Origin: Streptomyces sp. NBC_00306
Lineage (GTDB): Bacteria; Actinomycetota; Actinomycetes; Streptomycetales; Streptomycetaceae
Direction: 5' to 3'
DNA length: 64,000 bases
Assembly (NCBI RefSeq): GCF_036169555.1
Contig: NZ_CP108032.1
Span: 3,844,001 to 3,908,000 of the forward strand
Positions within the stretch are counted from its first letter, which is position 1; each line of letters opens with the position of its first letter. The notes under the pieces were generated by a model. It did no database searches and had not been told where the DNA came from. It saw nothing but the letters and a program-made list of their open reading frames with translations. Made by a program: the position numbers and the translations under genes. Of this stretch, positions 4,453 to 51,832 are shown in pieces.

Positions 4453-6579
4453 CTATGGCTGGAGTGTTCGCCGGGGTGGTACTCCTCCGGCGACCGCACG
4501 CTGCCGGGGGGCCGCCGAGCCCGTCCAGCAGGTGCCACGGCGCGACAGCAGTCGCCGCAGCCACAGTTCCGTGGAGATCAGGTCGGCCAGGCCGTCCAGA
4601 GGCACCTGTTCGCCCTCGGAGGCCGCCCTCAGGGCCTTGCGGACCACCCGCGCCTCCACGAGGCCCGCGTCCGCGAGCAGCGGGGCGTCGAAGAGGGCCA
4701 TCAGCGTCGGCAGTGCCGCGCGGAGGCCTTTGCGTGCCGTCGCGGTCGACGTGGCCTGGGTGGTCGCACCCCAGCCCGGCGGCAGGTCGTGGATGCCCGC
4801 ACCCGAGAGGACCGTGCGCAGGATCTCCGCCCGCGCGCCCGGTCGCACCCGCAGGGACTCGGGGAGGTCGCGGCAGGCGCGGACGACCTGGTTGTCGAGG
4901 AAGGGCGCGTGCAGGCGCTGGCTGCGGACCTCGGCCGCCTGTTCCAGGATGCGGTGGTCGGACGCGTGGCGGGTCAGCGCGGCCCGGGCGCGGGCCTCAC
5001 CGGGACGTTGCACGATCACCGGGCGCGTCGCCGCCGCCATCAGACGAACCGATACTTCAGCCAACGCCTCACCCGTGAGCCACCGCGCGGCCGGGCCGGG
5101 CCGCGACCAGGTCAGGGCCGCCAGCGACGCACCGAGCGGGCCGGTGCCGTTCGCCCCCGCGCTCTTGCGGTTCGCCTCCAGCAACAGGTCGGCGGCCGTC
5201 TCCAGGCCCGTCCGGTACGGCGTACGCGCCAGCCGCCGCGCCGCCCGGTACACCGTCACGGGGATGAACAGCGCCTGCGGCGAAGGGCCTTCGGCCCGCG
5301 CCAGCGCTGCGGCAGGCCGCAGCAGATGGCGCCGGCGCCGGTCCAGCAGCAGATCCGCGAGGCGTGCCGGGTGCGCGTCCAGCACCTGCCGTGCGCCCGT
5401 ACCGGTGAAGTGGTCCGCGCTGCCGCCGGTCAGCCGGCCGCGGTGGCGTTCCGCCGTGACGAGTGAGGGCGCGGGTTCGTCGGTGAGCGGCCCGCTGTCC
5501 AGGGAGGCGTACGGCAGCCCCTCCTCGCCGGCCGCGACGACCACATGGTGCAGGCGCGGGTTCTCGGCGATCGCGCGCGCCCGTTCCAGTTCGGCCTCGC
5601 GGCCGTCCTCGGTCAGATCGTTGAAGGTGACGGCGAGAAGCCGCTCACCGGCTCCGGTGCCGTGGCCGAGCACCGTGCCGGGGACGCCGGGCAGCCCCGC
5701 GGCGAGCAGCGCGAGCGTGCCGGACGCGCTGCCGCCGGACAGGTCCGCGCCGATGCCGGGCGCCGGTCCGCCCCGGGCGGCGCGGCGCTCCGCGGGACCC
5801 ATGCCCGGCACGGGACCGGGGTCCGGGGGCAGCGTCTCGGGTGCGTGCCGGGGGGCGGTGAGTCTCGCGCGTACGGCGTCGACCAGGGCGTCCCGTACGC
5901 CGTCGACCGCGCGCGCCGCCTCGATCTGCGGGCCCGCGACGGCGAGCGAGGCGACCGGCTCGTAGCCGGTGATCTCGCGGGAGCCCTCGCGCAGGATCAG
6001 CGCGTGCCCCGGCGGGATGCGCTTGACCCCTTCGTACGGAGTCGAGTCGCGCAACGCCTCCGGGGTCTCGGGGCAGGCGAGCAGCGCGGCCAAGTGCCCG
6101 ATGTCCAGCTGGGCTTCGATGAGATCGGCGAGCGGTAGGGCGGCGGTCGCGTAGGCGGTGCCGTTGGCCCAGGGGGTGTAGAAGACGGGTCTCGCGCCGG
6201 CCAGGTCGCCGATGACGGTGATCCGGCGCCCTATCTGGACGACCGCGGTGTAACTGCCGGCCCACGAGGTCAGATGGCGAAGGGCCCCGCCGCGGGCGGA
6301 CAGCAGTCCGGCCCGCAGCTCGCCGTCCCCGGCCGCGCAGCAGCCGAGGACGGCGAGTCTGGTGATGGGGACCTGCCCGACGACATGCGCCGGCGGATCG
6401 GCGGTGACGACGCGCACCTCGTCGGGGCGCCAGTCACCGACCGCCCACAGCGGGTCCGGGTCGCCCCACAGGAGCTGCGAGCCGACGGGGTGGACGGTGC
6501 GGCCCTCGTCGGACTCCCCGACGGCCCCGGCCGTACCGAAGTTTGCGGCAATACTGCTCCACCCCACCAACCACCGCAT
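4453..6579 (-). CDS. Asparagine synthase-related protein (lasso-cyclase-like), orphan
   Basis: This 708-residue protein resembles asparagine synthase B and the macrolactam (lasso peptide) cyclases derived from it. An N-terminal glutamine-hydrolase-like fold covers about residues 1-200 but lacks the Cys at position 2, so ammonia release from glutamine is not expected. The ATP-pyrophosphatase loop appears as DLSGGSASG at residues 279-287, where the usual SGGxDSS Asp is replaced. ATG 6579 is chosen because GGAGG sits 5 nt upstream; further in-frame upstream ATGs have no such site. No precursor peptide, leader peptidase or RiPP-recognition gene is visible nearby, so function is unknown. It is divergent from the sporulation gene at 7285 across a long intergenic region. 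Confidence 0.75.
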   Translation of the reverse strand: MRWLVGWSSIAANFGTAGAVGESDEGRTVHPVGSQLLWGDPDPLWAVGDWRPDEVRVVTADPPAHVVGQVPITRLAVLGCCAAGDGELRAGLLSARGGALRHLTSWAGSYTAVVQIGRRITVIGDLAGARPVFYTPWANGTAYATAALPLADLIEAQLDIGHLAALLACPETPEALRDSTPYEGVKRIPPGHALILREGSREITGYEPVASLAVAGPQIEAARAVDGVRDALVDAVRARLTAPRHAPETLPPDPGPVPGMGPAERRAARGGPAPGIGADLSGGSASGTLALLAAGLPGVPGTVLGHGTGAGERLLAVTFNDLTEDGREAELERARAIAENPRLHHVVVAAGEEGLPYASLDSGPLTDEPAPSLVTAERHRGRLTGGSADHFTGTGARQVLDAHPARLADLLLDRRRRHLLRPAAALARAEGPSPQALFIPVTVYRAARRLARTPYRTGLETAADLLLEANRKSAGANGTGPLGASLAALTWSRPGPAARWLTGEALAEVSVRLMAAATRPVIVQRPGEARARAALTRHASDHRILEQAAEVRSQRLHAPFLDNQVVRACRDLPESLRVRPGARAEILRTVLSGAGIHDLPPGWGATTQATSTATARKGLRAALPTLMALFDAPLLADAGLVEARVVRKALRAASEGEQVPLDGLADLISTELWLRRLLSRRGTCWTGSAAPRQRAVAGGVPPRRTLQP

Positions 6580-47180: not shown

Positions 47181-47400
47181 ATCCGGAGAACATCCTGGGT
47201 AACGCACGGAGAAAATCCAGGAAAAATATCCCGCCCGCCATTGCTCCAGACACGCGCATGTAATTGAGTGGGCTTCACAATGTGTCGTCGGCCGCTGTAC
47301 AAAGGAATACAGAGGAAAGCAGCTTTGCCCCTCGGCAGCCGGAAAGTCGGTGGCACCGCATGTCAGAACGGGTGACACCGCAGGGAAAGGACCGATATCC

Positions 47401-47736
47401 GTGGCTCAGCGAGTAGTGGTCGCGCTCTTCGATGACATCGACGGCGGAGAAGCGGCGGAAACGGTCACGTTCGCCCTGGACGGGAAGTCGTACGAGATCG
47501 ACCTCAATCCCGCCAATGCAAAGAAACTGCGCAAGGCGCTGGCCCCGTACGTCGCGGCCGGCCGGAAGCAGAGAGACGCCGGCAGACGCGGCAGGGCCCG
47601 CACCGCCTACACGCACACCTCGCTCGAGCCGGCCCCGGCCGCCGTACGGGCCTGGGCGCAGTCCAACAAGATGGACGTGCCCGCGCGCGGACGCATCCCG
47701 AAGGCGGTCTACGAGGCGTTCCGCGAAGCGAGTTGA
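47401..47736 (+). CDS. lsrL: Lsr2-type nucleoid-associated protein (LsrL paralogue)
   Basis: The 111-residue protein is an Lsr2 homologue: an N-terminal dimerization part (MAQRVVVALFDDIDGGEAAE; FALDGKSYEIDL) and a C-terminal AT-hook-like helix with RGR in DVPARGRIPKAVYEAF. Lsr2 proteins coat AT-rich DNA and silence foreign or specialised-metabolism genes. By position next to purS I take this to be LsrL, the second and less studied Streptomyces paralogue, rather than Lsr2. GTG 47401 has GGGAAAGGA about 9 nt upstream. It is followed by tRNA-Gly genes. Confidence 0.9.
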   Translation: MAQRVVVALFDDIDGGEAAETVTFALDGKSYEIDLNPANAKKLRKALAPYVAAGRKQRDAGRRGRARTAYTHTSLEPAPAAVRAWAQSNKMDVPARGRIPKAVYEAFREAS

Positions 47737-47756: not shown

Positions 47757-47787
47757 TTGCACAGCACCCCTGCTGTTCGGCTAGAGT
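47757..47787 (+). promoter_or_regulatory. Promoter of tRNA-Gly (TCC)
   Basis: TTGCAC (47757-47762) and TAGAGT (47782-47787) are separated by 19 bp. Transcription would start about 43 nt before the tRNA. The -10 hexamer is the same as for initiator tRNA and tRNA-Asp in this window, which argues that the tRNA-Gly is expressed. Confidence 0.65.
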
Positions 47788-47836
47788 CTGGAGCACGCCG
47801 AGGGGCGAGGCCGCAAGGCCCCACCTCACGCAGCGT

Positions 47837-47908
47837 GCGGGTGTAGTTCAGTAGTAGAACATCCCCCTTCCAGGGGGAAGGCGCAGTGTGCAATTCCTGT
47901 CACCCGCT
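47837..47908 (+). tRNA. tRNA-Gly (TCC) with atypical D and T arms
   Basis: Acceptor GCGGGTG / CACCCGC with discriminator U, and anticodon stem TCCCC/GGGGA with loop CTTCCAG, give anticodon TCC and all glycyl-tRNA synthetase identity elements. The D-loop reads AGTAGTA, with A (47853) where nearly all tRNAs have G18. The T-loop reads TGCAATT (47889-47895), so the normal TTC is TGC. The T-stem pairs GCAG-G with C-CTGT only if U at 47887 is bulged. The two tRNA-Gly(GCC) genes nearby have normal G18G19 and TTCGAAC, so this is not the local norm. Loss of the G18-T55 tertiary contact and a weak T-stem are known traits of staphylococcal tRNA-Gly used for cell-wall bridges. A degenerate pseudogene is less likely because the acceptor and anticodon stems are perfect. 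Confidence 0.85.
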
Positions 47909-47986: not shown

Positions 47987-48059
47987 GCGGACGTAGCTCA
48001 GTTGGTAGAGCGCAACCTTGCCAAGGTTGAGGTCGCCAGTTCGAACCTGGTCGTCCGCT
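47987..48059 (+). tRNA. tRNA-Gly (GCC), copy 1
   Basis: Normal cloverleaf: acceptor GCGGACG / CGTCCGC, anticodon GCC in loop TTGCCAA, G18G19 present, T-loop TTCGAAC, discriminator U. A TAAGGT at 47943-47948 is a probable -10 box. An identical copy lies at 51754-51826. Confidence 0.95.
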
Positions 48060-48065
48060 CGGAAA

Positions 48066-51753: not shown

Positions 51754-51826
51754 GCGGACGTAGCTCAGTTGGTAGAGCGCAACCTTGCCAAGGTTGAGGT
51801 CGCCAGTTCGAACCTGGTCGTCCGCT
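51754..51826 (+). tRNA. tRNA-Gly (GCC), copy 2
   Basis: Identical over 73 nt to 47987-48059, with the same ATGCGGACG context at the 5' side and CGGAA at the 3' side. The two copies flank the ABC transporter/two-component cassette as direct repeats. Confidence 0.95.
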
Positions 51827-51832
51827 CGGAAC

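Follow-up and report, generated by a model that had tools for sequence, protein, structure and literature searches.

The window, by which we mean the whole analysed stretch of 64,000 nucleotides (G000:C1:3844001–3908000) from a Streptomyces genome of 8.5 Mb assembled in one contig, carries on its forward strand a 72-nt gene of an unusual tRNA-Gly(UCC), located at 47837–47908, delineated by Rfam and our covariance model R1 and lacking an encoded CCA end. The match of this gene to family RF00005 scored 53.5 bits against a gathering score of 29, which assigns it to the tRNA family, and the ARAGORN scan of the window did not report it. The same program predicted a tRNA-Arg at 5905–5994, which is absent from Rfam matches and is probably false. 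The anticodon (TCC) occupies positions 47869–47871. G18 is replaced by A (47853) and G19 is retained at 47854, i.e. G18 alone is lost from the G18G19 pair. On the T-side A51 (47885) pairs with U63 (47898), an additional U at 47887 bulges out of the T-stem between pairs 52-62 and 53-61, and positions 53–56 (47888–47891) read GUGC, with G55, instead of GUUC. The position pair 32-38 is C-G or U-A in the variant tRNA, and the glycine identity elements C2-G71, C35, C36 and U73 are present. The initial annotation had described a tRNA-Gly(UCC) with A for G18, GTGC for GTTC, a bulged U in the T-stem and an acceptor, anticodon and discriminator ready for glycylation, and all these points were reproduced here. 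It did not include A51-U63, the 32-38 pair, the coupled exchange at positions 18 and 55, the tandem copies or the substitution in Kitasatospora described below. Thus, 47837–47908 is confirmed as a real tRNA-Gly(UCC) gene with non-canonical D and T elements.

The gene lies in a syntenic slot bounded on the upstream side by an lsr2 homologue (47350–47736, forward strand; identified by synteny and by Pfam Lsr2 PF11774, 5.3e-28) and marked on the other side by an adjoining normal tRNA-Gly(GCC) gene (47987–48060, forward strand; ARAGORN and Rfam). The latter is identical to the tRNA-Gly(GCC) gene at 51754–51827, 3.8 kb apart. Upstream of the variant, a −10-like box TAGAGT (47782–47787, forward strand) ends 49 nt 5' of the tRNA gene. 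It is found in 51 of 71 upstream stretches collected from Streptomyces loci, and TAAAGT stands in 7 of the 71. A possible −35 element TTGCAC (47757–47762, forward strand), of which TTGC alone is conserved in the consensus of these stretches, is separated from the box by a spacer of 19 nt, and a strict sigma-70 scan allowing 16–18 nt registered no promoter at the variant locus. The TAGAGT promoter claimed previously is upheld as a box and leader conserved in the genus and finds no support in the strict scan. The leader itself (47788–47836, forward strand) has a conserved first part (CTGGAGCACGCC...) in the consensus of the 71 stretches; such partial conservation across the genus would not be needed for a leader that is merely cleaved off.

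All 121 sampled Streptomyces genomes match the variant with a best E-value of no more than 4.3e-18 each, as compared to approximately 1e-6 for normal tRNAs, which rejects a chance occurrence. The loci of 70 of these genomes (L038–L107) were read, giving 82 genes selected for a paired acceptor stem and the motif GCGGG.GTAG. None of them departs from A18 or GTGC, the bulge is occupied by T in 81 and by C in one, and C35, C36 and U73 are present in 82/82 (C2-G71 being fixed by the filter), as is the anticodon UCC, which was not filtered in this set. Thirty further Streptomyces genomes (L118–L147, 34 genes), found via the pattern demanding GTGC and kept outside the orthologue count given below, have A18, G55 and A51-U63 in 34/34. 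Two or three copies of the variant are carried by 11 of the 100 Streptomyces loci read (70 plus these 30). Three tandem copies were observed in five genomes (L069, L070, L076, L077 and L118 of G018, G060, G035, G051 and G167), and in G120 (L068) two copies are placed on opposite strands of a short contig about 4 kb apart, possibly as an assembly effect.

Mean pairwise identity in the 71 stretches is 92.5% for the tRNA, 64% for 100 nt upstream and 51% for 60 nt downstream. In 17 distinct sequences 99.5% of cells are paired, a level reached in 0 of 500 shuffles, six pairs are changed on both sides (as high in 4 of 500), and the covariation score exceeds that of 500/500 shuffles, which ignore relatedness. 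Further pair types numbered 7, fewer than the average of 11.0 in the shuffles. No evidence of covariation comes from the five T-stem pairs, which are invariant in this set. The single change found in the acceptor stem is compensated. The variant is thus selected as a tRNA fold. A phage or mobile origin was rejected: there were no matches in 50,697 phage records, and two matches at 76% in a plasmid collection turned out to be ordinary tRNA-Gly with GG18-19 and GTTC.

For order-wide and class-wide searches we used model R1, which in the window and 20 of 37 loci scored the variant at 103.2 bits, followed by the normal CCC (66.4 bits) and UCC (65.4 bits) tRNAs. In the order sample (n = 99) all 84 Streptomyces genomes scored at least 96.6 bits and the 15 others at most 73.4. 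In the class sample (n = 393) the same level of at least 96.6 bits was attained by 44/44 Streptomyces genomes, and none of the 349 Actinomycetes genomes outside Streptomyces reached the variant score. Matches of 69.8 to 73.7 bits in 31 of these 349 span 71 bases, which is the length of a normal tRNA-Gly, and the rest gave no R1 match at E 1e-15. A stricter sequence pattern yielded 44/44 Streptomyces versus 0/349 other genomes. Applied to Streptomycetaceae, the pattern search registered the variant in 33 of 61 genomes and 12 of 17 genera, but it demands GCGG and GTGC and therefore missed g7, with its GCAGG acceptor, as well as g6 and g9. These genera were recovered by R1, which, run against 21 selected genomes, detected the variant in g6, g7 and g9 (3/3 each), confirmed g14 and found nothing in g15 (0/3), in g18, which is Kitasatospora (0/3), in G235 and in four Streptomycetales of other families. 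For G235 (g20) an assembly gap is possible, since the search for its lsr2 yielded nothing better than a paralogue at 54%. The order lsr2 homologue, variant, tRNA-Gly(GCC) was the same as in the window in 8/8 checked genomes (g6, g7, g9, g14 and g20), and in Kitasatospora (5/5 read) and g15 (3/3) this slot is occupied by an additional normal tRNA-Gly(GCC).

A comparison of 103 orthologues from 90 Streptomycetaceae genomes, each required to have UCC and U73, to begin with GC[AG]GG and to pair in the acceptor stem, revealed two forms of the tRNA. A51-U63, G19 and C56 are invariant in 103/103. The bulged base is U in 101, C in one and G in one (with a shifted register), and G49-U65 is found in 100/103, giving way to A49-U65 in three genes, the window gene not among them. 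Positions 18 and 55, which touch each other in normal tRNAs, change jointly: A18 is combined with G55 in 97/103 (11 of these 97 came from the search demanding GTGC), G18 with U55 in 6/103, and mixed combinations are absent. The six G18 and U55 genes are those of g6 and g9, which have the T-stem bulge and A51-U63 but retain GUUC. The FemX tree, built from 29 rows, groups g6 with g9 in a single clade (99/94) that branches apart from the remaining ingroup rows; G235 and G225 (2 of 31 rows), having no neighbouring alanine-racemase-like gene, were dropped, and the outgroup, G121, is also devoid of this neighbour. The form found in g6 and g9 may be a preserved early stage, with reversion as the alternative.

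Staphylococcal wall glycine tRNAs carry GUGC, and the initial annotation drew its analogy from this group. In S. aureus wall tRNAs G49-U65 is changed to A49-U65, G51-C63 to A51-U63 and GG18-19 to UU or CU (PMC4052509); the staphylococcal wall tRNAs are described there as having weak EF-Tu pairs and lost GG18-19. The non-proteinogenic tRNA-Gly(UCC) of S. aureus and our variant have in common the anticodon UCC and a status extra to the proteinogenic set (PMC4052509, PMC8007984, PMC4810233, PMC9976931), as well as altered D and T loops, A51-U63, a low tRNA-finder score and Fem-type enzymes. In contrast to S. aureus, the variant keeps G19 and mostly G49-U65 and has a bulged U, and the bridge contains one glycine in the Streptomyces wall versus five in S. 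aureus. Staphylococcal-type features are half present: G18 is lost in 97/103 with G19 kept in 103/103, and A51-U63 is found in 103/103 with A49-U65 in 3/103. The analogy proved to be right in kind (A51-U63, loss of G18, UCC) and inexact at G19, which is kept, and at G49-U65, which is nearly always so. The restriction to Streptomycetaceae, together with the intermediate form seen in two genera, would favour an origin separate from that of the staphylococcal tRNAs. Among the papers listed in searches of an incomplete open-licence collection, none names such a tRNA in Streptomyces, which is a weak negative. A dedicated wall tRNA is known from Staphylococcus, while its actinobacterial form, the 18-55 exchange, the bulge and the loss pattern appear, rather tentatively, to be new.

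Judging from sequence comparisons, the variant is probably a dedicated, EF-Tu-avoiding donor of glycine for FemX. GlyRS would charge it, recognising C35-C36, U73 and the acceptor stem, which is intact. U73, which is reported to guard non-proteinogenic Gly-tRNA against D-aminoacyl-tRNA deacylase, DTD (PMC6097841), may shield the glycylated variant from the resident enzyme, whose gene is present in the genome. The affinity for EF-Tu would be lowered by A51-U63 together with the T-stem bulge and the altered 18-55 contact at the elbow, leaving the Gly-tRNA free, and FemX would then transfer its glycine to the peptidoglycan precursor, producing the single-glycine bridge. The strong EF-Tu pair G49-U65, kept in 100/103 orthologues, counts against avoidance of EF-Tu.

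Ordinary decoding appears to be provided for by other genes. The genome has 72 tRNA matches, and typing of the stretches with those outside the window by ARAGORN revealed three normal tRNA-Gly(GCC), one UCC (at G000:C1:2719790) and one CCC; model R1 gave 6 matches at E 1e-9, a total that the variant and these five genes would account for. An odd tRNA cluster was observed in the same genome (L034 106–261, 6212–6289 and 12821–12895, corresponding to G000:C1:6935145–6947933), consisting of Glu (CTC), one tRNA without an assigned anticodon, Trp and His with scores of 59.2, 46, 47 and 64.3 bits; for Glu, Trp and His, other copies exist in the genome. The normal CCC and UCC tRNAs resemble the variant in acceptor stem and D-stem but have G18, GUUC, G51-C63 and no bulge, where the variant has A18, GUGC, A51-U63 and the bulge; they are likely to be its parent genes. 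The search for another normal tRNA-Gly(UCC) or (CCC) proposed in the initial annotation thus found both, and the variant is not the sole reader of GGA. Given these tRNAs, and since GGA ranks last among the glycine codons (30 of 313, from a count in ten genes), decoding does not need the variant. One may still imagine that the variant does take part in translation and serves a particular decoding niche, such as GGA/GGG or a certain growth stage, its odd elbow being accepted in the way known from some organellar tRNAs. Invariance of UCC (82/82), of G19 and C56 (103/103) and the nearly constant G49-U65 would suit this explanation; but A51-U63 is also invariant and copies multiply in some species despite the presence of normal UCC and CCC and the rarity of GGA, so that we regard it as unlikely. 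The same multiplication of the variant (11/100 loci) beside a full normal set favours the donor role.

The candidate transferase for this glycine is the product of the only FemAB gene in the genome, a protein of 372 aa (Pfam FemAB, 156.5 bits). Its nearest solved structures by sequence are the S. aureus Lipid II:glycine glycyltransferase 6snr and FemX, and in S. coelicolor FemX adds the single wall glycine (PMC4790382). The gene is located about 150 kb from the tRNA, and linkage, therefore, gives no support. In genome comparisons FemAB was used as a stand-in for the wall type. It is found in 42/42 Streptomycetales genomes examined, with or without the variant; among those lacking the tRNA are Kitasatospora, g15 and outgroup families. 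The class sample gave 179 genomes with FemAB out of 393, made up of 44/44 Streptomyces and 135/349 others. Every variant-bearing genome searched has FemAB, but the reverse fails: a distribution of the tRNA linked to Fem across Actinomycetes is rejected by 135/349 genomes with FemAB and 0/349 reaching the variant score. The tRNA is, therefore, not required for Fem activity as such, and elsewhere the enzymes may take their glycine from ordinary Gly-tRNA or attach different amino acids. The FemAB distribution weakens the wall reading and is not fatal to it. In the comparison with wall type suggested in the initial annotation, the tRNA was found in Streptomycetaceae alone (0/349 Actinomycetes genomes outside Streptomyces reaching its score) and the link to FemAB is one-way. 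The proposal of a dedicated tRNA for wall synthesis is partly supported, being favoured by an extra gene confined to Streptomycetaceae with FemAB present and disfavoured by FemAB in the 135 genomes without the tRNA. The glycine might also be delivered to another non-ribosomal enzyme. Fem-like natural-product pathways are strain-specific, and the tRNA is present in 121/121 Streptomyces genomes, while the window's genome has just one FemAB gene. Precedents are available in Streptomyces, where the Fem-like Orf11 (BD-12) and DhpK (dehydrophos) depend on Gly-tRNA (PMC12945691), but on balance we find a natural-product donor decidedly unlikely.

Folding predictions bear on the donor reading in a less favourable way. 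In the minimum-energy fold of the variant a hairpin GCGC-AGU-GUGC (47881–47891) takes the place of the canonical T-arm, which became possible because GUUC was changed to GUGC. All four pairs of this alternative hairpin (gene positions 45–48 with 52–55) can be formed in 94/103 orthologues, and in most of the distinct full variants it is more stable than the canonical arm by 1.4 to 2.9 kcal/mol, the difference being 5.7 kcal/mol in the g14 sequence, which the canonical register used does not fit. The g6 and g9 forms disfavour it, as do three genes of g11 (L109, L111 and L116). The absence of a canonical T-arm from the minimum-energy fold counts against the donor reading. At the same time R57, A58, Y60 and the 3' strand of the T-stem are retained as a T-arm needs, and for this reason the alternative hairpin is not accepted as the preferred fold. 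The predicted hairpin would suit a view of the molecule as an uncharged tRNA-shaped regulatory RNA, for which the Bacillus cereus tRNA-Other, a pseudo-tRNA with a cell-wall phenotype, is a precedent (PMC3399842). Both are deviant tRNA-like genes linked to the wall, and the conserved leader of the variant is in line with this idea. However, tRNA-Other sits in a larger regulatory RNA according to the same source, whereas the variant has intact glycylation elements. A regulator would need neither C35, C36 and U73 invariant in 82/82 genes nor a compensated acceptor stem, which makes this explanation very improbable. A decaying tRNA-Gly copy, to which its resemblance to the normal CCC tRNA and its omission by ARAGORN might point, can practically be dismissed, as a pseudogene is ruled out by conservation and covariation, the changes being compensated, the gene genus-wide and its identity far above that of the flanks.

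Returning to the donor of wall glycine, we tentatively envisage, as one possible course of events, its stepwise origin independent of staphylococci. The bulge and A51-U63 would have come first (g6, g9), followed by replacement of G18-U55 with A18-G55 and refolding of the T-arm, by which EF-Tu and elbow-binding enzymes would have been shed; the Kitasatospora line, with DL- and LL-diaminopimelic acid in its hydrolysates, would later have swapped the variant for an ordinary tRNA-Gly in the slot. On the FemX tree the losses need two changes. Both DL- and LL-A2pm were reported in hydrolysates of Kitasatospora and Streptacidiphilus (PMC6113628), and loss of the variant may, as a mere suggestion, be tied to wall type; this tie fails at the variant-bearing g7 if g7 is Streptacidiphilus. 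The peptidoglycan type of Streptomycetaceae is given in the same source as A3alpha, which we cannot square with the single glycine of S. coelicolor.

How charged tRNA is diverted from translation to the wall is unclear in most bacteria (PMC4052509). If the proposed role is true, the solution of a wall tRNA arose twice, and A51-U63 together with the 18-55 contact would be its shared parts. Streptomyces would then offer a non-pathogenic and genetically easy system, where natural losses, as in Kitasatospora, and intermediates can be compared, and a tRNA gene of this much-studied genus would have been overlooked as an ordinary or poor tRNA.
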